Below are positions 27,692 to 50,107 of a stretch of DNA of 64,000 nt, one piece after another (positions within the stretch are counted from its first letter, which is position 1; every line of letters starts with the position of its first letter). The stretch is from Candidatus Eremiobacter antarcticus. Lineage in GTDB: Bacteria; Vulcanimicrobiota; Vulcanimicrobiia; Eremiobacterales; Eremiobacteraceae. The stretch is taken from NCBI GenBank assembly GCA_003244105.1, contig QHBK01000017.1:70907-134906 (forward strand), in the 5' to 3' direction. The notes under the pieces are model-generated. The model saw only the letters and a program-made list of their open reading frames with translations, searched no databases and was not told the DNA's origin. The position numbers were made by a program, and so were the translations under genes.

Positions 27692-28563
27692 CGCGTGTAG
27701 CCTTTCTCCTGCAGATAAGTCTTCAGCGCCTCAGTCCAGGGCCGCGGCTGCAACCCGATATCGTGCAGCTTGGTGCTTGCGAGCACCGAGTAGGGCGGAC
27801 GCCGAGCCCCTGCCGGATGCGCCGAACTGTGGATCGGGCGCGGCCGCAGAGCTGAGCCTGTCATCTCAAAGATCGCGCAGGCGAATTCAAACCAGCTGCA
27901 CTGTCCGCTGTTCGCCAGATGATAGACCCCGAACGCAGCGCGCAGCCGCAGCAGGTCGATGAGCAGGCTCGCGGCATCGTGCGCGAAGGTGGGCGCCATG
28001 ACCAGGTCGTCGACCACCTCGGGAGCCTGGCCGCCGCGCGCTTTGGCGACCATCGTCTCGACGAAGTTTCCGCCCTTGCCGCTGCTGCCCGCGGTTCCGA
28101 AGACGGACGAGATGCGCACGATGTAATGCTGAGGGTTGGCAGCAGCGACGAGCATCTCGGCCGCCGCCTTGCTCGCCCCGTACACGTTGAGCGGATGCGG
28201 AGCGTCGGTTTCCACGTACGGCACGCTCTGCATGCCGTCGAACACGTAATCCGAACTGATCTGAACGGCGTGCGCGCCTGCCTGCGCGGCGGCCGCAGCC
28301 ACATGATAGGCGCCTGAGACGTTCACCTCGAGGGCGCGCTGGGGTTGGGCCTCGCACTCATCAGTGCGGTGGAAAGCGGCGGTGTTGACGACGACGTCGT
28401 CGGGCGCAAGCGAGGCGATCGCCTTGCGGACGCTTTCACCATGGCGTATCTCGAGGTCGCGGTGCGTCCACTCGACGATTGAGAAGCCTGCGCGCCGGCC
28501 CGCTTTGACGATATCGCTCCCCACTTGCCCGTTCGCGCCGACGACCGCGATCGTGCGGCTCAC
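27688..28563 (-). CDS. rfbD: dTDP-4-dehydrorhamnose reductase
   Basis: 291 residues from GTG 28563. IAVVGANGQVGSDIVKAG, VVNTAAFHRTDECEAQP, ISSDYVFDGM and YGASKAAAEML (YxxxK) are the RmlD/RfbD signature blocks, with HLANSGQCSWFEFACAI near the C-terminus. It makes dTDP-rhamnose from the 4-keto intermediate. No rmlA, rmlB or rmlC is visible here, so those steps must be encoded elsewhere or the enzyme acts on a related keto sugar. It follows the punA stop by one base. Confidence 0.88.
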   Translation of the reverse strand: MSRTIAVVGANGQVGSDIVKAGRRAGFSIVEWTHRDLEIRHGESVRKAIASLAPDDVVVNTAAFHRTDECEAQPQRALEVNVSGAYHVAAAAAQAGAHAVQISSDYVFDGMQSVPYVETDAPHPLNVYGASKAAAEMLVAAANPQHYIVRISSVFGTAGSSGKGGNFVETMVAKARGGQAPEVVDDLVMAPTFAHDAASLLIDLLRLRAAFGVYHLANSGQCSWFEFACAIFEMTGSALRPRPIHSSAHPAGARRPPYSVLASTKLHDIGLQPRPWTEALKTYLQEKGYTR

Positions 28564-31141: not shown

Positions 31142-31155
31142 GTTCGAGGGCTGGC

Positions 31156-32115
31156 TTACGACTCGCCTGATAGCCGTCCCTTGAAGTCGGCGACCGTCAT
31201 GCGCAAGCCCGTCTCTAAGGAAACCGCCGGTTCAAAGCCGAGCAGCTGCCGTGCTCGAGAGATATCCGGACATCGTCTGGTGGGATCGTCTTCCGGCAGC
31301 GGCCGGTATTGAAACCGCGGCTCCGAACCTACCACCCGACAGATCGCCTGCGCCAATTCCACAATCGTCTGCTCGTTCGGATTCCCGAGGTTCACGACTA
31401 ACCCGCGTGTGCGATCGCTTGCGGCGCACCGCACGACACCTTCGACGAGATCGTCGACATAACATAAGGAGCGCGTCTGCTGGCCGCGGCCGAAGAGCGT
31501 CATCGGTTGGCCTGCCAGCGCCTGGCAGATGAAGTTGGGCACGACTCTTCCGTCGTCAAGCCGCATGCGTGGCCCGTAGGTGTTGAAGATCCTGATGATG
31601 CGAGCGTCGAGATCGTGCCAGCGAGCAAAGCTTGAAACCATCGCCTCTGCAAACCGTTTGGATTCGTCGTAGCAGGAACGCACGCCCACGGGGTTCACGT
31701 TCCCCCAGTACGATTCGCTTTGCGGGTGTTCCAGCGGCTCGCCGTAGGCCTCCGACGTCGAGGCGAACAGCAGCCGTGCGCCGTGCTTGGCGGCAAGGCG
31801 GCAGCATAGTTCTGTGCCTCTGCTGTTGACGAGCATGGTCTCGATCGGATAACGCGTGTAATCGACGGGACTTGCCGGCGATGCGAAATGCAGCAGGAGA
31901 TCGGTGCCGCGCACATCCGGATGTTCGATCCAAGACGGCTCGCTGACGTCCAGCCGAAGATGCTGGAACTTGCCATCGCCGAGCGCTGCGTCCAGGTTGG
32001 CGCTTGCGCCGGTGAGCATGTTGTCGACGCCGATCACGTGATGGCCGTCGCGCAGGTAGCGATCGACCAAGTGCGAGCCGACGAAGCCGGCCGCGCCAGT
32101 GATGACGACGTTCAC
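31156..32115 (-). CDS. UDP-glucuronate decarboxylase-like SDR
   Basis: 319 residues from GTG 32115, overlapping the ugd stop (GTGA). VVITGAAGFVGSHLVDRYL, HFASPASPVDYTRYPIETM, FASTSEAYGEPLEHPQ and SCYDESKRFAEAM (YxxxK) match UDP-glucuronate decarboxylase (UXS) proteins, as does RIFNTYGPRMRLDDGRVVPNF. Directly after ugd, it most likely makes UDP-xylose from UDP-glucuronate. A UDP-glucuronate epimerase is the alternative. Confidence 0.88.
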   Translation of the reverse strand: MNVVITGAAGFVGSHLVDRYLRDGHHVIGVDNMLTGASANLDAALGDGKFQHLRLDVSEPSWIEHPDVRGTDLLLHFASPASPVDYTRYPIETMLVNSRGTELCCRLAAKHGARLLFASTSEAYGEPLEHPQSESYWGNVNPVGVRSCYDESKRFAEAMVSSFARWHDLDARIIRIFNTYGPRMRLDDGRVVPNFICQALAGQPMTLFGRGQQTRSLCYVDDLVEGVVRCAASDRTRGLVVNLGNPNEQTIVELAQAICRVVGSEPRFQYRPLPEDDPTRRCPDISRARQLLGFEPAVSLETGLRMTVADFKGRLSGES

Positions 32116-33491
32116 GCGGACGGTGTTATGGTCTCGGTCGTCTCATGCCCGCGAGCTGTCTGCGAGCTCGCGCGTTCCGGCTCATTGACGGCACCCGTGC
32201 TTCGGACGCCCGCGTACATGAGATCGTGCGAAGCCACCGTTTCTGGATCGTAGACGTTGCGCAAATCGAACAGCACCACGCCGGCCATCTGCGCCCGCAG
32301 CCTTGTGAAGTCGAGCTGTGTGTACTCCCGCCACTCCGTCGCCACAATGACTGCATCGGCATCTGCCGCTGCGTCATACGGACTGCCCGCATACCGCACC
32401 GAGTCGCCCAAGACGCGAGCCGCCTTCTCCGTGGCGACCGGATCGTGGACGGTCAGCTGTGCGCCCTCGCTCGCGAGTTGCTTGGCCAGCGCGATCGCCG
32501 GGGATTCGCGGATGTCGTCCGTCTCCGGCTTGAACGAGAGCCCGAGCTGTGCGAGGCGCTTGCCGTTCAAACCGTCCAGGAGCTCGCTCAAACGCTGCAC
32601 CGCGCGGTCGACGCGTTCACGGTTGACCTCCAGGGCCGCTCGCAGCACTCGGGCCGGGACCTGCGACTTCTCTGCGATCTGCACGAGCGCCCTCAAGTCT
32701 TTGGGAATGCACGAGCCCCCGAATCCGAGACCGGGGTTCATATACTGCATGCCGATGCGCGCGTCAGAGCCGGCGCCGGCGATGACGTCGTTGACATCCG
32801 CGCCGTTGTGCTCGCAGATATTGGCGATCTCATTGATGAACGAGATCTTCACCGCCAGGAACGCGTTGGCCGTCAATTTTATCATCTCTGCCGTGCGCGC
32901 GTCAGTGACGACGATGGGCGCATGCAGCGGCGCATAGAGCTCCCGCAATGCGGCTTCCGCATGCGCATCGCCGACGCCGATGACGATGCGATCAGGCTTC
33001 ATGAAATCTGCAACAGCGGAGCCCTCGCGCAAGAACTCCGGGTTGGAGACCACGCTGACCGGATGGTCGCCACGGTTGCGTTCGCTGATGATCCCGGCGA
33101 CCAGGTCCGCCGTCTGGACGGGAACGGTGGACTTATTGACGACGATCTTTGGGCCGTCGAGAGACTCGGCAATCACCTGCGCGGCTTCGCGGATGGCGCG
33201 CAAATCGAGTTGTCCATCCGGGCCGGTGGGAGTGCCAACGGCGATGAAGACGATCTGCCTTCCTTTGATGCCGTCAGCGACGTCCGCGCGGAACCCGAGG
33301 CGGCCCGCTGCCTGATTGCGCGCGACCAGCTCTTGCAAGCCCGGCTCGAAGAACGGCACTTCGCCCTCCCGAAGCGAGGCGAACTTTACAGGGTCGTTGT
33401 CGATGCATGTGACGACGTTGCCGAGTTCGGCCAGGCAGGCGCCTGTAACCAACCCGACATAGCCGGCACCGACAACCGCTATTTGCTGCAC
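32112..33491 (-). CDS. ugd: UDP-glucose 6-dehydrogenase
   Basis: 459 residues from GTG 33491. IAVVGAGYVGLVTGACLAELG is the NAD-binding start, and GFGGSCIPKDLRALV holds the catalytic cysteine at about residue 261. NKSTVPVQTADLV and ESPAIALAKQLASEGAQLTVHDP complete the family pattern. It oxidises UDP-glucose twice to UDP-glucuronate. It is the first gene of a minus-strand group with the SDR, murJ, punA and rfbD, and is divergent from the glycosyltransferase group. The last 35 residues are a poorly conserved tail. Confidence 0.94.
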   Translation of the reverse strand: MQQIAVVGAGYVGLVTGACLAELGNVVTCIDNDPVKFASLREGEVPFFEPGLQELVARNQAAGRLGFRADVADGIKGRQIVFIAVGTPTGPDGQLDLRAIREAAQVIAESLDGPKIVVNKSTVPVQTADLVAGIISERNRGDHPVSVVSNPEFLREGSAVADFMKPDRIVIGVGDAHAEAALRELYAPLHAPIVVTDARTAEMIKLTANAFLAVKISFINEIANICEHNGADVNDVIAGAGSDARIGMQYMNPGLGFGGSCIPKDLRALVQIAEKSQVPARVLRAALEVNRERVDRAVQRLSELLDGLNGKRLAQLGLSFKPETDDIRESPAIALAKQLASEGAQLTVHDPVATEKAARVLGDSVRYAGSPYDAAADADAVIVATEWREYTQLDFTRLRAQMAGVVLFDLRNVYDPETVASHDLMYAGVRSTGAVNEPERASSQTARGHETTETITPSA

Positions 33492-33624: not shown

Positions 33625-33651
33625 ATGTGGCAGGAACAGGTTGATGATTAG
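33625..33651 (+). CDS. Candidate leader micro-ORF 1 (8 codons)
   Basis: ATG TGG CAG GAA CAG GTT GAT GAT TAG encodes MWQEQVDD. It is preceded by GGGAGG (33615-33620) with 4-base spacing, a far better ribosome site than that of the following glycosyltransferase. Its stop abuts the ATG of the next micro-ORF. There is no family evidence; it may be a regulatory leader. Confidence 0.3.
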   Translation: MWQEQVDD

Positions 33652-33690
33652 ATGCACAGAGGTTGTGTAAGCGCTAGAAAGTTGCATTGA
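33652..33690 (+). CDS. Candidate leader micro-ORF 2 (12 codons)
   Basis: It encodes MHRGCVSARKLH. The ATG directly follows the stop of micro-ORF 1, and its TGA overlaps the TTG start of the glycosyltransferase (TTGA). It could couple ribosomes from the strong upstream site to the weak TTG start. It is short enough to arise by chance. Confidence 0.28.
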   Translation: MHRGCVSARKLH

Positions 33691-34442
33691 TCACGCAGAA
33701 AACGCGCGTCGCTCGCGCGCACGAACAGGTGGAAACGCCCGCCGACGTACGAGTCGCGGATGTTTCCATCGTGATTCCTGTCTACAACGAGGCGCGGATC
33801 CTGCAGAACCTCATTGAGGAGCTTCAGGAGCACTTCGACAATTACTATTTCCCCTACGAGATATTGATCTGCGAGAACGGCAGCGCCGACGCATCAAAAG
33901 AGATCGGCGGGACGCTTGCGCGCGCCTACGACAACGTCGAGCTGCTCACCCTGGACCAGCCGTCGTACGGGGCGGCCATCCGCAACGGGATCTTGCACTC
34001 GTCGAGCGAGTACGTGTTCATCTTCAACGCCGACCTTTGGTGCCTGAACTTCTTCTCGAGCGCCCTCAAACGGCTCAAAAGCGGCACGGATCTCGTGATC
34101 GGCTCCAAGCTGATGCCGGGATCGGTGGATAATCGCCCATTCCTGAGGCGCGGCATCACTCGCAGCTTCAACGCGCTGCTGCGCACGTGCTACGGCTTCA
34201 CCGGCAGCGATACGCACGGGCTCAAGGCGATGCGCCGCTCGCGGATCGTGCCTATTCTAGAGCAGTGCCGCACCGACCGCGAAGTCTTCGACACCGAGCT
34301 GGTTCTGCGCGCGCAAAGAGCCGGCTTGGGCATTTCCGAAGTGCCCGTCACGGTTTTGGACCGCAGGGCTCCGCGCATGTCGCTGCTGCGCCGCGTGCCG
34401 TCGACCATCCGCGACCTCGTGCTCATACGCAAGACCTTATAG
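33687..34442 (+). CDS. Family 2 glycosyltransferase (dolichol-phosphate-mannose-synthase-like)
   Basis: 251 residues from TTG 33687. VSIVIPVYNEARILQNLIEEL and EILICENGSADAS are the GT-A nucleotide-binding start of GT2 enzymes, and SYGAAIRNGI is the conserved central block. The place normally held by a DxD/DADL metal motif reads FNADLW, with Asn in the first position. The C-terminus has no clear membrane helices. It probably transfers a sugar to a lipid phosphate or a growing glycan. It heads the central plus-strand run of glycan genes, after two micro-ORFs. Confidence 0.85.
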   Translation: MITQKTRVARAHEQVETPADVRVADVSIVIPVYNEARILQNLIEELQEHFDNYYFPYEILICENGSADASKEIGGTLARAYDNVELLTLDQPSYGAAIRNGILHSSSEYVFIFNADLWCLNFFSSALKRLKSGTDLVIGSKLMPGSVDNRPFLRRGITRSFNALLRTCYGFTGSDTHGLKAMRRSRIVPILEQCRTDREVFDTELVLRAQRAGLGISEVPVTVLDRRAPRMSLLRRVPSTIRDLVLIRKTL

Positions 34443-34474
34443 CCGCTCCTGGCACTTCGCACGTTTCGCTCGAC

Positions 34475-35719
34475 GTGCTGCGGATATGCATGCTCTCACC
34501 CTATCGGCCGCCGCAGGGCGCCGAGCTCTCACATGCCGGCGATTCAGCGCTCAACTGGTATACCCGGCGCCTCGCGTTCGCGCTCCGAGATAAAGGCGTC
34601 GACGTGCGCGTGGTAGCTCCGCGCCACGCGGATGAAGCCCCATGGCTCGATTCCGGCATCCGCATTTTGCCGACATACCGCCGCGGGTCTCCATTCGCGG
34701 CCAGCGAGATCGCGCGCGCGCTCCCCGCCGCCGGAGCTCCGCTCGTCCACATCCAGCACGAATTGTTCGCGTACGGGGGACTGGCCAGCGCGTTCTTGCT
34801 GCCTGCGGCGATGCGCGCGACGCGCTGCCGGGGCATCCGCGTAATGACGACCCTTCACGGAGTGCTGCCGCTTCACAAGCTCGACCGCGAGTTCATGCGT
34901 GCCAACGGCATCGGCGGACCGCTGAGCTTGGCGAGAAACGTCTGGCGGTCGCTGCTGCGCCGCATCGCTACCCACTCGGATCTCGTCCATGTGCATGAGA
35001 GCGCTCACCGCCGCTGGCTCGAAGAAGAATACGGCCTTCGCGGCTCAAGGATCGCAGTGATACCACTCGGTGTGGACGGCGTCGGCAGCCAGGATCCGGC
35101 GGCTGCACGCTCGGCCCTTTCGATTCCGGCCAACGCGGAAGTCGCGCTTTTTTTCGGGTACTTGGCTGGATATAAAGGCATCCACCAGTTCCTCGACGAC
35201 ATACCCGCGCTGCTGGACAAACGCCCGGCAGTCCACATCGTCATCGCGGGCGCCGTACCTCGCCGCCTCGCCCACGGGTCAACGCTCAGCGCACGTTTGA
35301 AGAACCTGGAATCGCACGATCGCGTTCACGTCTTGGGTTTCGTTCCTGAGGGGCGCGTCGCCACCGTGTTTTCCGCCGCAGACGTAGCGGTTTTGCCCTA
35401 CACGCTTGCGATATCGGCCAGCGGCCCGATGTCGCTCGCCATATCGCACCGCATTCCGGTGCTTCTTTCTGACGCATTCGCAGAGTCCTATCCGGACGCT
35501 CCCGGCATGTACCAGGTCAGCCACGGACGCATCGCAGCGGCTATCGACCGCTTCTTCGAGGATGCGCTGCTGCGCACTCGCTCGCGGGACTACCTCGCCG
35601 GGCTCGCCAAATCCAAAACGTGGCCACTCGTGGCCAGTGCATTTGCCTCACTATACTCGGGAGCGCTGAAAGCTCACACGGCCGAGCAACAGCGCGTGCA
35701 AGGCGATGAGTATGTTTGA
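34475..35719 (+). CDS. Family 4 (GT-B) glycosyltransferase
   Basis: About 414 residues from GTG 34475, which puts the first strand (LRICMLSPYRPPQGAE) at the N-terminus. The frame stays open upstream only as a shadow of the preceding gene. HIQHELFAYGG and TLHGVLPLHKLDREFM belong to the N-domain; VIPLGVDGVG and ALFFGYLAGYKGI belong to the C-domain. SAADVAVLPYTLAISASGPMS replaces the usual E-x7-E loop with a Ser/Gly-rich form. It would transfer a nucleotide-sugar glycosyl group. The end overlaps the next methyltransferase by 14 bases. Confidence 0.85.
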   Translation: MLRICMLSPYRPPQGAELSHAGDSALNWYTRRLAFALRDKGVDVRVVAPRHADEAPWLDSGIRILPTYRRGSPFAASEIARALPAAGAPLVHIQHELFAYGGLASAFLLPAAMRATRCRGIRVMTTLHGVLPLHKLDREFMRANGIGGPLSLARNVWRSLLRRIATHSDLVHVHESAHRRWLEEEYGLRGSRIAVIPLGVDGVGSQDPAAARSALSIPANAEVALFFGYLAGYKGIHQFLDDIPALLDKRPAVHIVIAGAVPRRLAHGSTLSARLKNLESHDRVHVLGFVPEGRVATVFSAADVAVLPYTLAISASGPMSLAISHRIPVLLSDAFAESYPDAPGMYQVSHGRIAAAIDRFFEDALLRTRSRDYLAGLAKSKTWPLVASAFASLYSGALKAHTAEQQRVQGDEYV

Positions 35720-36455: not shown

Positions 36456-36522
36456 GCCCGCTCTCTCACCGGCCCGCTGGGCGGCGTTCGCGGCGCTCGC
36501 ATTCTGCGCTATTCCGTTACTG

Positions 36523-39207: not shown

Positions 39208-40031
39208 TCTCGGATTTCGAAGCCTTCTATGAAGAGCGCAACGCCCAGAAATACATCACATCGGATAATCCGGACAACGTGCTCTTGGTCAAGCGCATGG
39301 CGCGTTGGCTCGACCTGCAGCCGAGCGACAGCATCTTGGATTTTGGGTGCAGCGACGGCTACTTCTTGCAGCGCCTGACGGACCGCTGCCGAGTGGCTCG
39401 CGCGGTCGGCATCGACCTTTCCGACCTCGCGATCCGCAGAGCGCGTCAATTGACGGTAGGCAGCCGTCAGCAGTTCGAGTTCTTGAGGACGGCTGGGGAT
39501 ACGATTCCGTTCGCAAATGAAACGTTCGACAAGATCATCGTTAATGAAGTCATCGAGCACGTGCCGGACGCCGCCGGAACGCTCAGCGAAGTCGCGCGAG
39601 TCGCAAAACCCGGAGCCTTGATCTACATCACCGCGCCGAACTCGCTCGCCGACGTGCTGCCGTTCTTTCGTGCCTATTGCCGCAAAGTTGATGGGGTTGA
39701 GGGTCATCTGCGCCGGTACTCGCTGGAGCAATTCCGCCGCGCCGCAAACGAGGCGGGGATGGTCGTCCTGCGGCACACCTATCACGGCTTTCTGGCATGT
39801 TTTCTTTGGTATAATTTTGTGATTTACAACGAGCGCTTGAAGACGGCGGCGATGCGCTCTATCACCAGCAGCGCTCCGCGCTTCGATGACGAATCGACGC
39901 ACCGACCTCGCTTCAATGCTCTTTGCGCGTTGCCGTTCGGTGTGATGCATCTGGTGAACGCCTTGGATGCGCCGTTCCGCGCTTTTTCAGGTTGCCTGGG
40001 GATCCACGTACTGCTCAGAAAGCCGCGGTGA
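39204..40031 (+). CDS. Class I SAM-dependent methyltransferase
   Basis: About 275 residues from TTG 39204, overlapping the previous stop (TTGA), with GGGG 7 bases upstream. Motif I is ILDFGCSDGYFLQRL (about 44-58), the acidic residue is in GIDLSD, and IIVNEVIEHVPDAAGTLSEVARVAKPG is motif II/III. The C-terminal part has a hydrophobic stretch (GFLACFLWYNFVIYN) that may touch the membrane. It is distinct from the methyltransferase at 35706-36455. A role in modifying a lipid-linked sugar is inferred from context. Confidence 0.82.
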   Translation: MISDFEAFYEERNAQKYITSDNPDNVLLVKRMARWLDLQPSDSILDFGCSDGYFLQRLTDRCRVARAVGIDLSDLAIRRARQLTVGSRQQFEFLRTAGDTIPFANETFDKIIVNEVIEHVPDAAGTLSEVARVAKPGALIYITAPNSLADVLPFFRAYCRKVDGVEGHLRRYSLEQFRRAANEAGMVVLRHTYHGFLACFLWYNFVIYNERLKTAAMRSITSSAPRFDDESTHRPRFNALCALPFGVMHLVNALDAPFRAFSGCLGIHVLLRKPR

Positions 40032-40041
40032 CGCCGTTTCC

Positions 40042-41199
40042 GTGAGGGTCCTCATCGTCGCGCCGGAGTGGCCGCCCAACGTCGTGGGCGGCGGGGGACC
40101 TGTGTACGAGCGAATCGGGCGCTTTCTCGCGCAGCGTGGTCACACCGTGAGCGCAGCCTTCACGGATACAAGCCGTCTAGGATGGCGAACGGAGCCGTGG
40201 GAACGCAGCGTCGGTTCAGTCTCGTTGCTGGGCCTGCCGCCCGCACCGGTGCTGTGGAACATGAAGTGGCTGAGGCCGGCCCTCCCCCCCAATGCGAGAG
40301 GCTTGAGGCGGTTCCGGCGGTTACTCGCCCAGCCCTGGGATGTCGCGCACTTGCACGCGGTGGGATTCCCGCTGGTCGATTTCGCCGCTTGGGTTTTACG
40401 CGGGCGCGGCATACCGTATGTGTTCACCGCGCACGGCATTCCAGCATCGCCGCTCTCTCGCGGGTTCGCTGCCCGCACCGCCCTCATGAGTTACCTGCAA
40501 TTGGTCACCGGCGCCACGATCCGGCATGCGGCGCGCTACACCGCGGTTTCCGCCGCGGTCGCGTGCAGTCCGATGTTGCCGCGGCGCGATGCGATCACCA
40601 TACATAACGGCATAGACGAAAAAGATTTCGACGGGGCAAGCGATCACCGTGTTGCTGCACGGCCTCTGCGAATCGTTTCGCTCGGAGGGCTGTCGCTCGT
40701 CAAAGGCGCGGACACCGTCTTGCGGGTGATGGCGCAGCTGCGGTCGATGGATATCGATGCGACCGCCGCCATCTACGGACACGATCACGGCGATGCCCCG
40801 TTGCTGCTCGCGCAGCGCCGCGAACTGGCGCTGGATTCCGCGGTGGAATTCAAGGGACCATTTAACGATGAGGAGCGGCGCGCTTTGCTTCGCAATGCGG
40901 ACGTGCTTTTGGCGCCGTCGCGGGTCGAAGGTTTCGGCATTGCGGCAGTCGAGGCGCTCGCCGCGGGCTTGCCGGTCGTCGCCTCGCGGGTGGAGGGCAT
41001 GTCAGAGGTCCTCGAAAGCTGCGCGTTGCTCGCGCCGCCGGGCGACCCCGCGGCTTTCGCCGCTGCAATTCGCGATCTGCTGGACCCCGCGCGGCGCGCG
41101 ACGATGATCGAGCACGGACGATCTGCAGCGCGGCGATTTTTGTGGTCGGACATTCTGCCGCGTTACGAAGCAGTGCTGGAGTCCGCCGCTCGGTGCTGA
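40042..41199 (+). CDS. Family 4 (GT-B) glycosyltransferase
   Basis: 385 residues from GTG 40042. VRVLIVAPEWPPNVVGGGGPVYERI is the glycine-rich N-domain opening. VFTAHGIPASP and TIHNGIDEKDFDG are typical GT4 blocks, and PSRVEGFGIAAVEALAAGLPVVAS carries the E-x7-E motif of retaining GT4 enzymes. It would add a sugar to the lipid-linked glycan on the cytoplasmic face. It starts 10 bases after the methyltransferase stop and overlaps the start of the next membrane protein. Confidence 0.88.
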   Translation: MRVLIVAPEWPPNVVGGGGPVYERIGRFLAQRGHTVSAAFTDTSRLGWRTEPWERSVGSVSLLGLPPAPVLWNMKWLRPALPPNARGLRRFRRLLAQPWDVAHLHAVGFPLVDFAAWVLRGRGIPYVFTAHGIPASPLSRGFAARTALMSYLQLVTGATIRHAARYTAVSAAVACSPMLPRRDAITIHNGIDEKDFDGASDHRVAARPLRIVSLGGLSLVKGADTVLRVMAQLRSMDIDATAAIYGHDHGDAPLLLAQRRELALDSAVEFKGPFNDEERRALLRNADVLLAPSRVEGFGIAAVEALAAGLPVVASRVEGMSEVLESCALLAPPGDPAAFAAAIRDLLDPARRATMIEHGRSAARRFLWSDILPRYEAVLESAARC

Positions 41200-43553
41200 A
41201 GCGCTGGCAGCTGACCGCGAGCATGGCGTTCTGCTCCCTCGCCCTTGGGTTCGCGCTCTGGGCGCACTCTGGAATCCCAGCCTACCGGCACGACTGGCAA
41301 TGGCCGCCGCTCTCGGCCATGTTGGCTCACTCCCTGCCGGCGCGTCTGGCCGCCTGGAACTGGAACGGTTTGGGTGCTCCCAACTTGGCCTTGCAGGTGC
41401 ATCCGTTCTTTGTCCTCACTGCGGGCTTGGCATCGGTGTGTTCACCCAAGGCTATTCTGATCGGCTGCATGGTCGTTTACGCGTGCATGGCGGCATCCGG
41501 AGCCACGGTGCTGAGCATGCGCCTCTTGCAGGCCACGCCTGACGGCGCTTTGGTGGCCGGCGTCTTATACGCGTTGGCGCCGCTCGTCGTCAACGAACTC
41601 GTCGCCGGCCATGTAGAAGTACTCCTGGCGTATGCAGCAGTGCCATGGGCGATTGCAGCGTCTCTGTCGTCGCAACGAAGCGCCGCTTTGCTCTTGGGCA
41701 GCGCGCTTGCATGGACCACGCTCCACATCCAGTATCTGCTCTTCGCGGTCGTGCTCATCGCTATCGTCGGCAAAGTGCGCGTCAACCGACTCACGGCCGG
41801 CCCGTTGGCCTGCGCGGCCGTGGTCGCCCTCTTGGGGTTGTGGTCGGTGCTGAACGAGCATGCGCAGACGGTCGAGGCGCAGATGCGCACGAGCCTGCCA
41901 TGGGTGGTCGTGCAGTCCGCGGATCCGATCGATGCGATGCGGGCCGTCGGATACTTCGCGCGCTATTGGGAGACTGCCGCCGCTCATCTTCCACTGCAAT
42001 GGTTGTATCCGTGGATATATCCGGCTGCAGTGCTGGCGGCGGCTGCAGTACGGCGCGGGCCCACTACGCTGCGTCTGTTGGCGGCGTACGCTGTCGGCTT
42101 TCTCGTGCTCAGCGGAACGAAGGGCCCTGCGGCGCCGGCGTTCTCCTGGCTCTTCTCCCATAGCCTGGGGGCGTCGGCCCTGCGAGAACTCTACCATGGC
42201 GCGATATTCGTGGTATTGCCCGGATCGGTCGCGGCTGCTTGGGCACTCTCCGCCTTACGGTGGAGGCCGATGCGGCTAGCGCTCGCAGCCGCGGTCGCGG
42301 CGCTTGCGGCGGCGCCCTTCTTCACGGGTTCGGCCCTGGGCCAAACCGGCTCGATCACAAGGCAAGACGTTGAAGCGTCGGCGGCATCATTTGAACACGC
42401 CGGCGCAGCGCGCTTTTTTCTGCGTCCAGGCGTGAATCCGATGGGGCCGGTCAGCTTCGATTTCGGAGGCGCAGATCCGCTCGCGTTTTCTGTCGGCGAG
42501 GGGATGCCGTTTTCCGTTTACTCCGCGTCTGGTGGCGATGCCGCCACCGTCTTCACCTTGGAACGAGCATTTGTCGGCTCAGCAGAGATCACGAAAGCGC
42601 TCGGGATAGGTTTGATTCTCGACCGCAAGGGTTTCGAGACCAAATTCTCACCCAACGTACCCTTTGGCCACGCGTTCAAAATCCGCGAGCTGCCCGGAGA
42701 GGCGCCCTTGCCTGCCGGCTGGCGCGTGATCCACGCAGACGCGGCTAGCCGGATCTCGGTGAGTCCGTCTCCGGCGTCTATCGTACGTCTGCTCAAAGCG
42801 CCGACAGGCCGCGGGGACAAACGCGAAGTTGTGTCCTTCGACGTTATCCACGGCAGCGACATCGGACGTGCATGGGCACCCGCTCAAGATTTCTGGTACC
42901 TCGCGCTTCCTGCGGCGATAGCGGCAGCCGACGGTGCGCTGACCTTTGCGCGTGATGCGGCCGTCGGCGTGCAATGTATACCCGGCGTTCGAACGGCTGA
43001 TGTGTACCGGTGGGAAATCTCTCAGCCGCCCGCATCATCCGGCTCGCTGGGCTGGCATCTGCAACGACCGCCGTGCGGCGCAACGCTGCGTTCGGCGTCG
43101 CGAGCCCCGACTCTCACGATTCTGACCGCTGCGTCCGCGCTCCAAGGCTGGAGGGAGCTGGTGGCTTTGGGCCGCCGCGAGGAGGCGACGCTCAAAAACG
43201 TCAGCCGCAGCCCGAGCGCGGTGAGCGCCACTTCCGCCGAGGACTGCCGGCGCTGTGAAGTCGTCTTGGCGGAACGATGCGACGCCGGCTGGGCGCTGTC
43301 TGTTGACGGTCAGACCGTGCCGCGTCGAGGTGAACCCTGTTTGTTCGACACTTTGAATGTCTGGAGCGTCTCTCTCAAACCGGGCGCGCGTCTACTCGTT
43401 CGCTATGGGCCGCAGCGCATCGCCTCGTTTCTTGAAGTGGCGGCGGCAGCTGCGTGGTTCTACCTACTTGCGTGCGCCGTTGGACTTGCCTTGCAGGCTC
43501 GCAGAGATGCCATCATTGCAGATCGGCCCAGCGATACACCGTCGCGTCGATGA
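41193..43553 (+). CDS. Large polytopic membrane protein, GT-C/YfhO-like (second copy)
   Basis: 786 residues from GTG 41193, overlapping the glycosyltransferase stop. The first 420 residues contain about 10 hydrophobic helices with an early charged external loop (GIPAYRHDWQWPP). The segment SLGASALRELYHG corresponds in position to the FRxP region of the protein at 36523. A soluble C-terminal portion (about 430-740) and a last helix near 765 complete the same architecture. It is probably a membrane glycosyltransferase using polyprenyl-phosphate sugars. Its 3' end overlaps the convergent CBM-like gene by 41 bases. Confidence 0.62.
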   Translation: MLKRWQLTASMAFCSLALGFALWAHSGIPAYRHDWQWPPLSAMLAHSLPARLAAWNWNGLGAPNLALQVHPFFVLTAGLASVCSPKAILIGCMVVYACMAASGATVLSMRLLQATPDGALVAGVLYALAPLVVNELVAGHVEVLLAYAAVPWAIAASLSSQRSAALLLGSALAWTTLHIQYLLFAVVLIAIVGKVRVNRLTAGPLACAAVVALLGLWSVLNEHAQTVEAQMRTSLPWVVVQSADPIDAMRAVGYFARYWETAAAHLPLQWLYPWIYPAAVLAAAAVRRGPTTLRLLAAYAVGFLVLSGTKGPAAPAFSWLFSHSLGASALRELYHGAIFVVLPGSVAAAWALSALRWRPMRLALAAAVAALAAAPFFTGSALGQTGSITRQDVEASAASFEHAGAARFFLRPGVNPMGPVSFDFGGADPLAFSVGEGMPFSVYSASGGDAATVFTLERAFVGSAEITKALGIGLILDRKGFETKFSPNVPFGHAFKIRELPGEAPLPAGWRVIHADAASRISVSPSPASIVRLLKAPTGRGDKREVVSFDVIHGSDIGRAWAPAQDFWYLALPAAIAAADGALTFARDAAVGVQCIPGVRTADVYRWEISQPPASSGSLGWHLQRPPCGATLRSASRAPTLTILTAASALQGWRELVALGRREEATLKNVSRSPSAVSATSAEDCRRCEVVLAERCDAGWALSVDGQTVPRRGEPCLFDTLNVWSVSLKPGARLLVRYGPQRIASFLEVAAAAAWFYLLACAVGLALQARRDAIIADRPSDTPSRR

Positions 43554-44313
43554 TCTGGGCGTCGCCGCCCGCCACAAAGAGGCTTCTCGACGCGCGCTGC
43601 AGACCGGCGCGGTCGCGCTCCACCGTGCTCCAGGTGCCGCGCGTGAAGACGTAGCGGATGTCGCTGCCGCCGCGAAGCTCCATGCGGATTTGGAAATGCA
43701 AACCGTCCAGCCGCTGCATCTTGATGGCTTGCGCGTTCCATCCGCTCGTGTCGGTCGCCATGTAAACGTCGTCGGAAAATGGCGTGTTGGGAGGCACGGC
43801 AACCGTGACGGTCACCGTGACCGCTTTCGACAAGATGCTCGGATGCAGCCCTTGGCGCGGCGCGAGATCGGGGTTCGGCTTGGGTGAAGACAGCGTTACG
43901 ACATAGCGCCGGGGCACGAGCGCCGCGGGCGTGCCGACGACGAGCGGCTTGCGCGACGTGCGCACGGTTTGTATCTCACCGCTCGCCGCGTCCAGCGTCA
44001 CGACCGCGTAGATGCCCGGACTGATGGCATATGCGGGTGCGGCGCCACTGCCATAATCCGTGATCGCCGCTCCGGAAGCGAGTTTGAGCGCATCGCCCGT
44101 TGCGAACACGATGAAGCCGCTCTCAAGGTCCACGATCTGTCCGCTCAGCAGCAAAGGCAAGGGCGTCGGCGATGGAGCGGCTCGATCAGGTGGGGCGGTC
44201 TGCACCGCTTGAGGCACGGCCGGCGCGGCGCCCGCCATGCTATGGGAGATGAAACCCGGCTGGAGCGCAGCCGCAAACGCAATGGCGGCAAAAATCATGC
44301 TCCATCGTCTCAT
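43513..44313 (-). CDS. Secreted protein with CBM48/CBM20-like carbohydrate-binding domain
   Basis: 266 residues from ATG 44313, which overlaps the barrel gene stop (ATGA). The signal peptide is about 1-28. The first half (about 50-160) is a predicted beta-rich domain of unknown type with a Pro-rich lead-in. The C-terminal 100 residues hold VYMATDTSGWNAQAIKM and IRYVFTRGTWSTVERD, the W- and F-containing blocks of glycogen-binding-like (AMPK/CBM48, CBM20) domains. No catalytic domain is present. As last gene of the ligase/barrel operon, it may bind the exported glycan. Confidence 0.65.
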   Translation of the reverse strand: MRRWSMIFAAIAFAAALQPGFISHSMAGAAPAVPQAVQTAPPDRAAPSPTPLPLLLSGQIVDLESGFIVFATGDALKLASGAAITDYGSGAAPAYAISPGIYAVVTLDAASGEIQTVRTSRKPLVVGTPAALVPRRYVVTLSSPKPNPDLAPRQGLHPSILSKAVTVTVTVAVPPNTPFSDDVYMATDTSGWNAQAIKMQRLDGLHFQIRMELRGGSDIRYVFTRGTWSTVERDRAGLQRASRSLFVAGGDAQIIDATVYRWADLQ

Positions 44314-46052
44314 TGCTCCGACACCTGAATCGAAAAAGCCGGCGACCAGCGTTGACCGGCCCAATCGAAATAATACGCTCGGCCGATGTCGACGAATAGG
44401 GTCTTGCCCAGCCTCGTGCGGATGTCGGCTGCGGCTTGATAGCGCGGTGGGCCTGCGACGAACGGCTGCTGGATCGGACGATAGTTGTTTCGCTGTGCGC
44501 TGACCGTGAACTGAAAAGCGGGCGACGGCGCCACAGCAGCTGTCAACACGAGCGCCTGATTTGAGACGTGCGGAAACGCCGTGAGGGTGCCTGCAAGCAA
44601 CGGCAGTCCGTTGGGCGACGCAGGCTGGGGTACGAGCCCCGTCGAGCTGTTGGGTGATGCGAGCGTCTCATCGACGCGCCGGGTGATGACCGATTGAAAA
44701 ACCCAGGAGGCCGTCAGCGCGAATTTGGACGAGAACCGCTTGCTCTCGCTCACCGTCACCGTCTGGAAGTCCATGCTGTTCGGATAGCTCAGCCAAACAT
44801 GTTGCCCTTGGTAGATCCCGTTGAGTCCAGTGCCCCAGGGCGCGCGATATACAGGCGTCGAGACGATCGCGCCGACATAGAGCGACTCGACATCGCGCTT
44901 GGCGCTGCCGCCGACGCCGAAAACATCGCGCGTGTGGCCGGCGCCGGAAAGCAGACGAAACGTCAAGCCTGAGCGGCCGGCGCGCTGATCGTATCCTGAC
45001 CACGCGACGCCTTCGGTGGTCGGATGATTCTGTGTGTAGCTGTGGCTCGGATCGCCGTAATATCCGAGATCGTTTGGTGCGAGCAGGTTGCCGTATGCTT
45101 GCGACACCTCGGCGGTCACCGACGAGTTGCGCAGCGCACGCGTGAGGCGCAGGTCCGCAAAGCCGTTGGACGAGAGCGGTTGGATCAGCCCGTACTGATA
45201 CGTGAAGAGCTGCGCATCAAAAACGAGGGCGCTGCTCGTTCCCGTGGGCAGATACGTCAGCCAGCTCCACTGCTTGGCGGGCTGCGTGATGGGATTGACG
45301 CTGAAAACGGCGTAGCCGGCTTGTCCGAAGACGGAATGATGCTCGAACGAGAAGTATGTCTTGCGCTGCTGGTCGTAACGGAAATGAGCGGTGTCGAGCG
45401 ACGTGGACGAGCCGGCGATGCCATAGGGAATGTCATAGGTAGCGCCCGCCAGTGAATTGACGCCGAAGTTCTGGTTGTGCGAGAAGTTTCGCACGTAGCG
45501 CGGCAGCGCAGGCGTTTGGATGCCGCCGTTGAGAAACACGAACGACGCGGCATCGAACCGGACATAGTTCTCAGGGTCGATCACGGCCTCTTTGGCGACG
45601 ATGAATGGTCTGGCGTCGCCGAGATCCGTCAAGAAGAAAGCGTCACCCGGCATCTCGCGTCCCTTTTCGGGATGGCCGTAGTCGTCGTTGAGAAATGTCC
45701 AACGATCCGGAGTGGGGCTGAGCGGGACGAAGTACGCGCGCCGAAACGCCAAGAAATCGGCAAACGCCGCCCCCCCATAGCTCGCTCCCGGGGCATTCAG
45801 CCGCACGTGGCCGGCCACGACGATGCGCCGCAAACTGAGGTCGATAGAACACGCGTCGCCCCTGACCGTGACGCCGTTCGAGAGCGCGGCCACCACGTCG
45901 CCGCGAGCTTGGATGGTGGCCGAGTCGCTGAAGTAGTTGACGCGTTGCGCTCGCAGATCGATGGTGACGGAAGAATGTTGCGGCGCTTGCTCAGCCCGCG
46001 CGCATAAGGCTGAGGCGAGTGCGAGTGCAATCCCAGCGATCGCAGTTTTCAA
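44310..46052 (-). CDS. LptD/OstA-like outer-membrane beta-barrel protein (paralogue 2)
   Basis: About 580 residues from TTG 46052, which gives a clean signal peptide (KTAIAGIALALASALCARAEQ). An OstA/LptA-like jellyroll follows (VTIDLRAQRVNYFSDSATIQARGDVV, about 28-100), then a long barrel with many Tyr/Phe/Asn/Ser strands, ending TLFVDIGRAYYFDWAGQRW. Only one cysteine is seen after the signal peptide, so the disulfide pattern of Escherichia coli LptD is absent. It starts 17 bases after the O-antigen-ligase-like stop. It is a candidate outer-membrane exit or assembly factor for the glycan made by this operon. Confidence 0.72.
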   Translation of the reverse strand: MKTAIAGIALALASALCARAEQAPQHSSVTIDLRAQRVNYFSDSATIQARGDVVAALSNGVTVRGDACSIDLSLRRIVVAGHVRLNAPGASYGGAAFADFLAFRRAYFVPLSPTPDRWTFLNDDYGHPEKGREMPGDAFFLTDLGDARPFIVAKEAVIDPENYVRFDAASFVFLNGGIQTPALPRYVRNFSHNQNFGVNSLAGATYDIPYGIAGSSTSLDTAHFRYDQQRKTYFSFEHHSVFGQAGYAVFSVNPITQPAKQWSWLTYLPTGTSSALVFDAQLFTYQYGLIQPLSSNGFADLRLTRALRNSSVTAEVSQAYGNLLAPNDLGYYGDPSHSYTQNHPTTEGVAWSGYDQRAGRSGLTFRLLSGAGHTRDVFGVGGSAKRDVESLYVGAIVSTPVYRAPWGTGLNGIYQGQHVWLSYPNSMDFQTVTVSESKRFSSKFALTASWVFQSVITRRVDETLASPNSSTGLVPQPASPNGLPLLAGTLTAFPHVSNQALVLTAAVAPSPAFQFTVSAQRNNYRPIQQPFVAGPPRYQAAADIRTRLGKTLFVDIGRAYYFDWAGQRWSPAFSIQVSEQ

Positions 46053-46069
46053 GCGGCGGGCGAAGCCGT

Positions 46070-47467
46070 TTACGATGGGCTGCCCAGGCTTTCCGCGACC
46101 GGAATGGAGCGCGTCAGATCCGTTCGGCCATCGGGGGAAGCTTGTTTGACCTCGAAGAGCGGCGACGCGGTGGCCGCGCCCAGCAAAAGCCAGCACAGCG
46201 CCGCCACTTTCGGGAAGAAAAAGAGATCGTCAACGAGTTGGTGCGCGAGCAAGCTTGCGATGGCGAGAAAAGCGGCCAAGCTCAGCGCCGATGTCTTGCT
46301 CAGCGCAAACGTCTGTCTCAAAGCCACCACGGCGAAGGCGGAAAGTGCAGCCAGGCCGACGATGCCCTGTTCCGCGAGGGTCTGCAGCCACAGGCTGCTC
46401 GCCTGCGTCTGTACGCCGTGCAATCCCACTGTCGGCAGAAGCAGCTCGTAATTTCCAGCCCCGACGCCCGTGAGCGGATCGCGTTTGAACAAGGCGATCG
46501 CGGCCCGCCACAGCTCGCCGCGCGTGCCGACGCCGCCAGGCTGCTGGAGACTGGCGAACAAGAGCCGCCGTTCCAGACCGGTCAAGCCGGCATGCGCCCA
46601 GTAAAAGAACCACAGCCCCGCGACGATGCAGCCGAACGCGACACCGATGATCATCGGCAGCGCCGCAGTGCGGGCGCGCGCGCGGTCCAACCTCCACAAG
46701 AAGGCGTAGCTCAAGGCGGTCACAAGCGCACCCGTCCGCGACAGCGTGAGGACGAAAGCCGACGCGGATACGCCTGTGGCCCAAGCGCGCGCAGGTGTCA
46801 AGAAACCCGGCAACACCGGGGCGACCCACAACACCGGCAGTGCCGCTTCCAAGAACCCTGCCAATTGGTTGGGCCCTTCCAACTGGCCGGCGACTCGCGG
46901 CAAGGGATGATCGTTCAACCAGATGCCCGACGGCGCTCCTCCCAAGACGGCCTGCGAAACCGCAAAGATGCAGACGATCAGCGACGACGCGACCACTCCG
47001 TAGATGAAGGCGTGTTGGGCGCGCGCTGTCCGCTCCACGAGCGTGGCGGCGCACCAGAACAGCACAAGGTACTCAGCCTGCTTGAAGAACTCGCGCGCGA
47101 CGTGCACGGGATAGGGCGCATGCACCACCGACAGCGCAACGGTCAGCATGATCGCCGCGCCGGCAAGCAAGACACAGCGAGCCGGCCGAGAGCGTGGGAT
47201 CAGCGGAACTCCCGAGCAGAGAAGTCCAACAGCAGTTCCAAGCGCTAAGCATTTCTCGATGGTGATGGTGGTGCTGCCGACATCGCGATAAGCGGCGAAG
47301 GGCACGGCGAACGCAAGAACACCCAAGAGCCAGGCCTTGCGATGAAATGCGCAATAGGTGGACGCTGCCACGATCGCCGCAAACGCCAACGAGGACCATA
47401 GGTCGAGTGGCGTGCGATGGATCGTCTGATCGATAACGGGCGGAAACGGTGGGAATGCCGCGGTCAC
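46070..47467 (-). CDS. O-antigen ligase / Wzy-like polymerase
   Basis: 465 residues from GTG 47467, which overlaps the sugar-transferase stop. About 11-12 membrane helices surround a large periplasmic loop. LEGPNQLAGFLEAALPVLW is the conserved G-P-N block of the Wzy_C/WaaL family; TGVGAGNYELLLPTVGLHGVQTQASSLWL is the loop block with the conserved His. It joins or polymerises undecaprenyl-linked glycan on the periplasmic side. Polymerase and ligase cannot be told apart from sequence alone. Confidence 0.85.
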   Translation of the reverse strand: MTAAFPPFPPVIDQTIHRTPLDLWSSLAFAAIVAASTYCAFHRKAWLLGVLAFAVPFAAYRDVGSTTITIEKCLALGTAVGLLCSGVPLIPRSRPARCVLLAGAAIMLTVALSVVHAPYPVHVAREFFKQAEYLVLFWCAATLVERTARAQHAFIYGVVASSLIVCIFAVSQAVLGGAPSGIWLNDHPLPRVAGQLEGPNQLAGFLEAALPVLWVAPVLPGFLTPARAWATGVSASAFVLTLSRTGALVTALSYAFLWRLDRARARTAALPMIIGVAFGCIVAGLWFFYWAHAGLTGLERRLLFASLQQPGGVGTRGELWRAAIALFKRDPLTGVGAGNYELLLPTVGLHGVQTQASSLWLQTLAEQGIVGLAALSAFAVVALRQTFALSKTSALSLAAFLAIASLLAHQLVDDLFFFPKVAALCWLLLGAATASPLFEVKQASPDGRTDLTRSIPVAESLGSPS

Positions 47468-48195
47468 CAGGCTCCTTCGCGGCGCAACACCGCCGGAATC
47501 GTCTCGCAACAAAGCCAGAGATCGATCAACGGCGACCAGTGATTGACATACCAGATGTCCATCGCCATCCAACGCCTGAACGGCACGGCGGTGCGTCCGC
47601 TCACCTGCCACAGGCCCGTCAATCCGGGCCGAACGGTCAGCCGCTGATGATAGTGCGGCGCGTAGCCCTTCACCTCGTCGGGCAAAGCCGGTCGCGGCCC
47701 CACCAGCGACATCTCCCCGCGAAGGACGTTCCACAGCTGCGGAAGCTCGTCAAGGCTGCTTCGCCGCAAGAAGGCGCCGAGCGAATGGAGGCGCGGGTCG
47801 CGGGCGACTTTGAACGCCGGCCCGTCGATCTCGTTCAAGTGGGCGACATGCTCGTGCAACAGGTGCGCACCGTCCTGCATGGTGCGAAACTTATACAACC
47901 GGAACGGATGGCCGTCTTTGCCTACCCGCTCTTGTGAGAAAAACGCCGGACCAGGAGAGGCAATCTTCACCAAGAGCGCGATCAGTGCCAACAGCGGCGC
48001 CATCAGCACCAAGAGCACCGCTGAGGCGAGTGCGTCGACGGATCGCCTGTAAAGGATCCACGCCGGAGGAACCGTGCGCTGGGCGCGGCGCCAATATTCG
48101 CAGCGCTGCTCCAACGACAGCCGCTCGATGACGCGCACGTTCCCGCGCGCCGGCGCAGCAATGTGTTGCTGAACGGTCTTGTTCGCGATCGCCAT
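47464..48195 (-). CDS. Undecaprenyl-phosphate sugar-1-phosphate transferase (WbaP/PglC-like)
   Basis: 243 residues from ATG 48195, overlapping the deoB stop (TGATG); a GTG just upstream is the alternative. After one hydrophobic helix (about 52-76) come FFSQERVGKDGHPFRLYKFRTM, SLDELPQLWNVLRGEMSLVGPRPALP and RPGLTGLWQVSGR, the catalytic core of the bacterial sugar transferase family with the Asp-Glu pair. The extra N-terminal domains of full WbaP are absent. It begins glycan synthesis by moving a sugar phosphate to undecaprenyl phosphate. Confidence 0.93.
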   Translation of the reverse strand: MAIANKTVQQHIAAPARGNVRVIERLSLEQRCEYWRRAQRTVPPAWILYRRSVDALASAVLLVLMAPLLALIALLVKIASPGPAFFSQERVGKDGHPFRLYKFRTMQDGAHLLHEHVAHLNEIDGPAFKVARDPRLHSLGAFLRRSSLDELPQLWNVLRGEMSLVGPRPALPDEVKGYAPHYHQRLTVRPGLTGLWQVSGRTAVPFRRWMAMDIWYVNHWSPLIDLWLCCETIPAVLRREGAW

Positions 48196-49355
48196 CACAC
48201 GGCCAGCTCTTGCGCGGGCGGCGGCACGCCAAAGCTCGCGAGCACTCTCATCCCAACTTGAGAAAACGAGTCGACAGTGCCGTGCCCAACGCCCTTTCGG
48301 CCCGGCGTATAGTCGAGCAGCGGAGCGAATTCTCTGGTGTGATCCGTACCTGGCGCGGTCGGGTCGCAGCCGTGGTCCGCGGTGAGCAGCAGCCGGTCGT
48401 CCGGCCGCATTTCGTTTACAATGTCGGTCAATCGGTCGTCAAGCATTAGCAACGCTTTGGCAAAGCCGTCAGCGTCGCGTCGATGTCCGTACTTCGAATC
48501 GAAATCGTTCAAATTGGTAAAACAAAGGCCGCGTTGCCCGGCGCGCAGCCATTCGACCGTTTTGGCCAGTCCTTCAATATTGTCGGCCGTTCTGCTTCCC
48601 GACTCGATGCCCTGGCCGCAATAGATGTCTTCGATCTTGCCGATCGCATGCGTCGGTATGCCTGCTGAAGCCAGACGCTCGAGCATGCTCGGCGAGGGCG
48701 GCGCCACGGCGTAATCGCGCCGGCCGGCGGTGCGTTGGTATGCGCCCGGCGTTCCGCTGAATGGCCGCGCGATCACCCGGTTGACGCGGTTTGGCGGCAC
48801 CAGCACAGCGCGCGCCTTCTCGCACCACTTCCACAGGGTCTGCACGCTGACGACGTTCTCATGGGCGGCGACCTGGAAGACCGAGTCCGCCGACGTGTAC
48901 ACGATCGGATAGCCTGTGCGCGTGTGCTCCGGTCCTAGCCGCTCGATGATCTCCGTTCCAGACGCCACCACGTTGCCCAACACCGGCCGCCCGATGAGCG
49001 ATTCGAAGCGCTCGATGATGGACGCCGGAAAGCCGTGCGGATAGGTGGGAAAGGCATTGCGTATGTGGATGCCCATCATCTCCCAGTGGCCGGTCACGCT
49101 GTCCTTGCCGTTGCTCGACTCGCGCAAGCGCGCCCACGAAGCGAGGGGATCGAGCGCAGCTTCAACGCCTTGCATGCGCGTGATGCAACCTAAACCGAGC
49201 CGCTCCAAGTTCGGCAGTTGCAACCCGCCGGCAGACCGCGCGACGTTGGCAAGCGTGTTGGCGCTGCTCTCATCGCCGTAGCGGCTGGCATCCTCACTTG
49301 CACCGGCGCCCCCACCGTCGATGACCAGTATGATGACGCGCGCTCTTTCTTCCAT
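48195..49355 (-). CDS. deoB: Phosphopentomutase
   Basis: 386 residues of the alkaline-phosphatase-like phosphopentomutase family. The N-terminal metal site is VIDGGGAGASEDASRYGD, where most homologues have a DSFGIG-type sequence. KDSVTGHWEMMG holds the threonine nucleophile region, IEDIYCGQGI is conserved, and LLLTADHGCDPTAPGTDHTREFAP gives the C-terminal metal ligands. It interconverts ribose-1-P or deoxyribose-1-P with the 5-phosphate. It overlaps both neighbours, making a nucleoside-salvage enzyme part of the glycan operon. Confidence 0.93.
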   Translation of the reverse strand: MEERARVIILVIDGGGAGASEDASRYGDESSANTLANVARSAGGLQLPNLERLGLGCITRMQGVEAALDPLASWARLRESSNGKDSVTGHWEMMGIHIRNAFPTYPHGFPASIIERFESLIGRPVLGNVVASGTEIIERLGPEHTRTGYPIVYTSADSVFQVAAHENVVSVQTLWKWCEKARAVLVPPNRVNRVIARPFSGTPGAYQRTAGRRDYAVAPPSPSMLERLASAGIPTHAIGKIEDIYCGQGIESGSRTADNIEGLAKTVEWLRAGQRGLCFTNLNDFDSKYGHRRDADGFAKALLMLDDRLTDIVNEMRPDDRLLLTADHGCDPTAPGTDHTREFAPLLDYTPGRKGVGHGTVDSFSQVGMRVLASFGVPPPAQELAV

Positions 49356-50107
49356 TAGATCAACACTCGGATAGGAACGCTGCGTTGCACGGACGCCCCG
49401 TCGGTGCGGATCGCCGTGACGACCACGTTCACCGTCTGCCCGGGGATGAGCACGTGTGGGACCGTCACCGACAGCGCGAAAACGCCGGGCGCCGTCTTCG
49501 GCACGCTGACCACGTATGTGCCGATGCGAGCGGTCACCGAAGCCGCGTTGCTCGTGGTGATGACCTTGGCGCTGGCGACCTCGCCGCCTCGAACGGTGTC
49601 GGATGACAGCGCGATCGATTCAATGCGTATGGGGTCAGTATCGGACGCGTAGGCCACGCCCCGCGGCAGCCCATCGCTGCCGACTGAAGGCGACGCCGTT
49701 GGCTGGACGGATGAGCCTCCTTGATGACTCAGAAGCGCAGCTTTTTTCGGCGTTGCGATACGCGCTTCGCTTGCGGACGGTAAAGGTCGGGCGGAGACTG
49801 TTGTGATAGGCACGGCGCCCAAGCTGGGCTTCGCCGCAGGCGTGACCCGTTTTGATACGGCGACCGGTGGTTTGGGCTGCACGGTTTGCTTCGACGAAGC
49901 CCGGGGAGCGCTGACCCCTGCCGTTGCTGCGCCCGTGCTCGGCAACCGTAGGGGCAGCGCTGATACTGGAGGCGCGCTCGACGGCCTGGGGGCGACACGC
50001 GTCCTATGCACTACCGCCACATTCTTCCAAGACAAAAAAGCCAGCGTCAGAACAACCGCCAGACTGAAAACGATCGGGCCAATGCGCCCCAACGCTGAGT
50101 GTCTCAT
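49355..50107 (-). CDS. Membrane-anchored protein of unknown function
   Basis: 250 residues. A single N-terminal membrane helix (about 9-27) is followed by a Pro/Ala/Ser-rich disordered region to about residue 150. The C-terminal 95 residues look like an Ig-like or bacterial beta-sandwich domain (IGTYVVSVPKTAPGVFALSVTVPHVLIPGQTVNV, cited in part as key strands). I recognise no family. It is the first gene of the right-arm operon and its stop overlaps the deoB start (TAATG). It may be periplasmic and anchored in the inner membrane. Confidence 0.6.
   Translation of the reverse strand: MRHSALGRIGPIVFSLAVVLTLAFLSWKNVAVVHRTRVAPRPSSAPPVSALPLRLPSTGAATAGVSAPRASSKQTVQPKPPVAVSKRVTPAAKPSLGAVPITTVSARPLPSASEARIATPKKAALLSHQGGSSVQPTASPSVGSDGLPRGVAYASDTDPIRIESIALSSDTVRGGEVASAKVITTSNAASVTARIGTYVVSVPKTAPGVFALSVTVPHVLIPGQTVNVVVTAIRTDGASVQRSVPIRVLI

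Follow-up and report, generated by a model that had tools for sequence, protein, structure and literature searches.

The window analysed here, a 64,000-nucleotide stretch of the draft genome of Candidatus Eremiobacter antarcticus (assembly of 2.64 Mb, 96% complete) forming part of its contig C17, carries a minus-strand glycan operon of six open reading frames (ORFs) encoding, in operon order, a membrane-anchored protein, the phosphopentomutase DeoB, a phosphoglycosyl transferase (PGT), a Wzy_C membrane protein (WZY), an LptD-like outer-membrane barrel (BARREL) and a secreted protein with a predicted CBM20 fold (coordinates in Table 1). A first-pass annotation made from the sequence alone had described these genes as tightly spaced, and all six were found at the coordinates and on the strand it gave, with overlaps or short gaps read from the DNA: the BARREL stop and the CBM start share an ATGA overlap (44313-44310), the PGT stop and the WZY start share a GTGA overlap (47467-47464), and the deoB/PGT and anchored protein/deoB junctions measure 4 bp and 1 bp. 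WZY most likely starts at 47467, giving 465 residues, and the likely start of BARREL is the TTG at 46052, 17 bp past the WZY stop; a start at 46073 is ruled out, as the codon there reads GTA. Alignments A2 and A3 and the BARREL model began at 46073, and so have seven extra residues ahead of the signal peptide, which leaves the conclusions unaffected. Family searches agree with the enzyme assignments for deoB (NF003766, 469 bits) and for the sugar transferase (Bac_transf, E 7e-64), with the qualification that PGT, called a WbaP-type initiator in the first pass, corresponds to no more than the catalytic C-terminal portion of the WbaP models. The polymerase/ligase call is likewise matched by a family, Wzy_C (E 2e-16).

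BARREL and the CBM-like protein had no meaningful match of their own when single window proteins were scanned against Pfam, NCBIfam and PHROGs, nor did their profiles match PDB chains by sequence search, and comparison at the level of fold was therefore needed. The AlphaFold2 model of BARREL (mean predicted local distance difference test score, pLDDT, 88; predicted template modelling score, pTM, 0.77; alignment of 47 sequences) places jellyroll-type strands at residues 38-180, followed by some 19-20 mostly long barrel strands, a count taken from the prediction. When the model was compared with the PDB by Foldseek, the first 13 matches were all LptD, from several species (E 1.3e-12 to 1.5e-9); full-length LptD outscored structures of the LptD barrel alone by a wide margin, an indication that the N-terminal domain adds to the match. 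Global template modelling scores (TM-scores) to LptD are low, about 0.35, as is expected given that the barrel differs in size. Aligned by hhalign with the phylum's canonical LptD, the one family it was compared with, the BARREL profile gave a probability of 95 (E 2.4e-8) and was colinear over 424 columns; LptC and OstA_2 models were weakly matched by two of 32 barrel members. The predicted architecture thus has the LptA/OstA-type N-terminal domain and outer-membrane β-barrel of LptD, and falls short of its 26 strands. The first-pass call of an LptD-like barrel is upheld by structure prediction and profile homology alike, the best structural matches being to LptD and not to an unrelated porin family.

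BARREL is not the LptD of the cell. The canonical protein is encoded on contig C3 (L036:5417-7708), adjoining an LptF/G permease (E 1.5e-85); an LptC-like gene is nearby, and LptA is also on this contig. A separate canonical LptD was found in all 61 genomes tested, which rules out BARREL as the only LptD. Two cysteines, C223 and C729, are invariant in the phylum's canonical LptD (L036 and relatives L128-L157), being present in 27 of 27 sequences. LptD carries an inter-domain disulfide, with which these residues are consistent, and possession of exactly two invariant cysteines suggests a single such bond in this phylum, as against two in E. coli. No cysteine is conserved in the barrel family (0-4 per protein across 47 barrels, many with none). 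Given the canonical LptD elsewhere and this lack of conserved cysteines, BARREL is a paralogue and not LptD itself, and derivation from LptD through an old duplication is part of the best explanation. A separate canonical Lpt system fits the description of the cultured Vulcanimicrobium as having an outer membrane covered by lipopolysaccharide (LPS) (PMC9758169).

A signal peptide is recognisable by eye in the partner protein; residues 54-120 make up a small N-terminal β domain, and most of the C-terminal domain is modelled at pLDDT >90. The model is best matched by the CBM20 domain of STBD1 with maltotetraose (E 1.1e-4, TMt 0.70). The predicted C-terminal domain therefore has the fold of CBM20 starch-binding domains, from which the protein differs in its weak sequence match, in having no attached amylase and in its extra N-terminal domain. 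W192 is kept in 35 of 41 family members (W, F or Y in all 41) and W262 in 40; at most, they are candidate equivalents of the CBM20 ligand residues.

The two proteins form a pair that is close to invariant throughout one class. A profile search over 149 genomes of the phylum (117 in the class, 32 outside) found the barrel family in 108 of the 117 genomes of this Eremiobacterota class, and three weak traces among the 32 outside it. Organism-labelled relatives are mostly Candidatus Eremiobacterota/Vulcanimicrobiota, together with one UBP12 record and two metagenome-assembled genomes titled Rhodospirillales (L081, JANYGA010000181.1; L088, CAJCIN010000014.1). Both of the latter carry the Eremiobacterota barrel locus, that of L081 being the same as in the same-class genome G015, and the titles look wrong. 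Neighbourhoods were surveyed at 92 loci holding 111 barrel ORFs, six of them cut by contig ends, and a CBM-family ORF lies directly downstream on the same strand in 104 of the 105 informative cases, bearing out the first-pass pairing of the barrel with a secreted CBM-like protein. Two barrels are present in 19 loci, typically as barrel-CBM-barrel-CBM. In the tree, 18 second tandem copies and seven BARREL2 proteins of family f1, that of the window included, fall into a single split that contains these 25 sequences and no others (support 0.86), so that there appear to be two old barrel paralogues. Our literature search, conducted largely without subscription papers, found no description of the barrel family.

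Homologues of deoB, PGT and the MurJ-like flippase occur within the fetched flanks of 75, 76 and 67 of the 92 loci, respectively, and the conserved biosynthetic block is deoB-PGT, joined by the flippase in family f2. The expectation that relatives would keep the order polymerase-barrel-CBM was not borne out: WZY stands directly against BARREL in only five of 41 genomes (that of the window, G004, G005, G008 and G011), and in the others it is 4-10 kb away or none is seen nearby. In family f1 deoB-PGT(-WZY) runs into barrel-CBM on one strand, whereas in f2 deoB-PGT-flippase is mostly divergent from it; the polymerase-barrel-CBM order is therefore local to close relatives, and barrel-CBM is the near-invariant unit. 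The anchored protein at the head of the operon has no second copy in the genome, and some of its relatives near the barrel in families f2 and f3 have a lipobox-like cysteine close to the start, which makes it a possible lipoprotein partner of the barrel in the outer membrane.

Wzy_C proteins (PF04932) fall into sets that are lpxC-linked, barrel-linked, near Wza or elsewhere. With lpxC present in 40 of 41 genomes, a Wzy_C lies 5.4-6.8 kb from it in 39, and one is found <12 kb from the barrel in 22. In the genome of the window the lpxC-linked protein (L228:1022-2269, G000:C3) is WaaL-like and encoded inside an lpxC-fabZ-lpxA-lpxB operon (names other than lpxC assigned by eye) that runs into an LptB-like ABC gene. 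The loop histidine that is important in WaaL (H338 in E. coli) and conserved in PglL (H349; PMC3643930) occurs in all 18 lpxC-linked copies checked and in none of 48 barrel-linked ones, which mostly have asparagine. The first pass had called WZY Wzy/WaaL-like; its Wzy_C character stands, and a role as O-antigen ligase was rejected on account of the missing histidine. The finding speaks against a ligase and is no proof of a polymerase, as some true Wzy polymerases also need that histidine and some have aspartate there (PMC3485256).

In family searches of 41 draft assemblies, Wza (PF02563) was detected in 25, a Wzz/Wzc-type protein in 24 and neither family in 16, of which 15 keep the barrel. In eight of these Wza/Wzz-less genomes, each with a completeness of 95% or more, the Wzy_C proteins number exactly two, one lpxC-linked and one barrel-linked. 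The first-pass annotation had held that a complete Wza/Wzc system elsewhere, serving the same polymer, would speak against its reading. This is partly the case: the genome of the window does encode Wza and a Wzc-type protein, on contig C3, but with a further Wzy_C 12.6 kb away, and this locus most simply serves another polymer. No gene for an outer-membrane polysaccharide export (OPX) protein was found at the barrel locus, the only PF02563 match of the genome being that on the other contig.

Table 1. Genes of the barrel operon and of the neighbouring glycan region; positions are those of the window.
Feature	Position	Strand	Remarks
CBM20-fold secreted protein, 266 aa	43513..44313	-	signal peptide, small N-terminal β domain, predicted C-terminal CBM20 fold; partner of the barrel
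BARREL, LptD-like outer-membrane barrel, 580 aa	44310..46052	-	signal peptide, LptA/OstA-type jellyroll, ~19-20 predicted barrel strands
WZY, Wzy_C membrane protein, ~465 aa, polymerase-like	46070..47467	-	without the ligase histidine
PGT, phosphoglycosyl transferase, 244 aa	47464..48198	-	Bac_transf catalytic domain only
deoB, phosphopentomutase	48195..49355	-	family match; adjoins PGT in relatives too
Membrane-anchored protein	49355..50107	-	conserved C-terminal domain, Ig-like by eye; homologue in 47 of 92 barrel loci
BARREL2, ancient paralogue of the LptD-like barrel	24967..26589	+	here without CBM partner
RmlD-type dTDP-sugar reductase	27688..28563	-	
MurJ-like flippase, Wzx candidate	29513..31141	-	homologue adjoins deoB-PGT in most f2 relatives
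NAD-dependent sugar epimerase/dehydratase	31156..32115	-	
UDP-glucose/GDP-mannose dehydrogenase family enzyme	32112..33491	-	nucleotide-sugar supply
Family 2 glycosyltransferase	33687..34442	+	
Group 1 / family 4 glycosyltransferase	34187..35719	+	
Group 1 glycosyltransferase	39967..41199	+	

The first pass did not list the MurJ-like flippase, the nucleotide-sugar and glycosyltransferase genes (27688-41199) or the second barrel paralogue, which stand in the same window as PGT and the Wzy_C gene. BARREL2 is flanked by an aminotransferase (23693-24970) and an epimerase (26633-27691), and this neighbourhood is kept in family f1, as is the order with a nearby gene for a Nickel insertion (PF01969) protein (22362-23744, minus strand). 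Two large membrane proteins of no assigned family are also encoded in the glycan region (36523-39207, plus strand, 894 residues; 41142-43553, plus strand, 803 residues); the gene for the second overlaps the 3' end of the CBM gene convergently, and its product weakly matches NF053599, the MmpA trehalose lipid delivery protein (E 7e-4, far under cut-off). A SurA/PPIC-type chaperone gene (53733-54686, plus strand) follows mfd, 3.6 kb from the barrel operon, a position kept in several relatives. SurA assists LptD folding in E. coli.

We propose, with a probability of about 0.45, that BARREL and its CBM20-fold partner are a dedicated LptD-derived outer-membrane module that exports or assembles the polymer of the neighbouring PGT, MurJ-like flippase and Wzy_C protein. 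PGT would put the first sugar onto undecaprenyl phosphate, the flippase would turn the unit over and WZY would polymerise the units in the periplasm, after which the jellyroll of the barrel would pass the chain to the barrel itself, with the CBM20-fold protein holding or guiding the glycan at the pore or surface. Computed support comes from the predicted fold, the LptD homology, the signal peptides, the class-wide pair, the nearby glycan genes and the absence of OPX and polysaccharide co-polymerase (PCP) families in many carriers. The first-pass suggestion of a barrel dedicated to glycan export or assembly is thus supported as to LptD fold, glycan-binding-type partner and glycan locus, while we infer the export itself, that is, that the barrel carries the polymer and that the CBM20-fold protein binds it, as well as the side of the membrane on which the latter works. 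Several points weigh against the proposal. The barrel is linked to the polymer by synteny alone, and in f2 the barrel pair often runs divergently from deoB-PGT-Wzx; genes for Wzx/Wzy without Wza/Wzc are also the normal O-antigen layout, in which exit is via WaaL and canonical LptD; and neither an inner-membrane energy source nor a periplasmic bridge of its own was found for the barrel. As to the partner, Pfam CBM_20 is matched weakly by four of 30 family members (best E 0.0024) and by the window copy not at all, and from the sequence the CBM20 ligand-contact residues cannot be claimed as kept.

The O-antigen layout leads to the main rival, which we consider rather unlikely: the product of the glycan genes would be LPS O-antigen, with the WaaL-like Wzy_C of the lpxC operon as its ligase, and BARREL would be a second LPS translocon, for instance for O-antigen-bearing or modified LPS, fed through its own jellyroll by a shared LptB2FGC-A bridge. 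The near-universal lpxC, the Wzy_C close to it with its ligase histidine, and the lipid A operon of the window's genome running into an LptB-like gene are all as such an arrangement would have them, as are the single LptA/LptD-type set seen by LptD_N search, the LptA-type jellyroll that the model retains and the LPS-covered outer membrane of the cultured member (PMC9758169). The barrel, however, is without the two invariant cysteines of the phylum's LptD and has fewer than 26 strands, and its CBM20-fold partner is unlike LptE. Moreover, smooth LPS is not known to require a second LPS translocon.

An envelope role unconnected with the glycan genes, such as delivery of another lipid or a lipoprotein, has a precedent in Borrelia, which lacks LPS and has an Lpt system with an LptD orthologue (PMC10353723), and in f1 BARREL2 stands apart from the PGT block, beside an aminotransferase and an epimerase and with no CBM protein. 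Such a role is nonetheless improbable, as deoB, PGT and the flippase remain close to the barrel even in highly diverse genomes, and the fold of the partner is a glycan-binding one. Less probable still is a channel for glycan capture and uptake, SusCD-like in function, to which the glycan genes would be mere neighbours. The typical ligands of CBM20 domains are α-glucans taken up for food, and the almost constant pairing of a secreted binding protein with a barrel would suit uptake; against this, the jellyroll is of LptD type, LptD matches rank ahead of TonB-dependent receptors, the neighbours examined included no recognisable glycoside hydrolase or sugar transporter, and the conserved neighbours are biosynthetic.

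If the proposed export module is correct, a class of mostly uncultured soil bacteria, in which a second LptD relative is undescribed, may possess an unrecognised exit route for surface polysaccharide. LptD is regarded as serving LPS only, and a class-wide second relative tied to polysaccharide genes bears on what else the fold carries, and on how Wzx/Wzy polymers leave cells without Wza, the carriers often having no recognised exporter of that type. As the phylum has a cultured member the question is testable. More tentatively, the barrel and its partner may constitute a further outer-membrane route for Wzx/Wzy polysaccharide, class-wide in Eremiobacterota and needing neither an OPX nor a Wzc-type protein; by the lateral-gate principle of LptD, this route may set a lipid-anchored polymer into the outer leaflet.

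Comparison with known systems sets the module beside several precedents. BARREL has in common with LptD of the LptDE translocon the LptA/OstA-type jellyroll followed by a large barrel, the best PDB match and the profile homology, and differs in being a second copy beside canonical LptD, with no conserved cysteines, some 19-20 predicted strands against 26, a CBM20-fold partner and a glycan locus around it. GfcD/YjbH of the group 4 capsule is likewise an outer-membrane barrel in a polysaccharide operon, for which release of lipid-anchored polysaccharide through a lateral gate like that of LptD has been proposed (PMC11494523), but in it a periplasmic domain connects two barrels, of 12 and 13 strands, and its operon encodes Wza- and Wzc-type proteins; the BARREL model shows one barrel and a jellyroll, and none of 32 barrel members matched the GfcD/YjbH Pfam families. 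The composite OPX/β-barrel translocons (EpsX/EpsY, WzpX) show that a barrel can serve the Wzx/Wzy pathway when the OPX protein is itself unable to span the outer membrane (PMC9601211, PMC9603273). These are 18-stranded barrels, closest to AlgE/PgaA and paired with a short OPX protein, whereas the locus described here has no OPX gene and 16 of 41 genomes have none. Wza/Wzc export, which also serves Wzx/Wzy polymers, is encoded here on a separate contig with its own Wzy_C, outside the barrel locus. The pairing of an LptD-type jellyroll barrel with a CBM20-fold protein distinguishes the Eremiobacterota module from GfcD, from EpsX/EpsY and WzpX, and from the Borrelia Lpt system.

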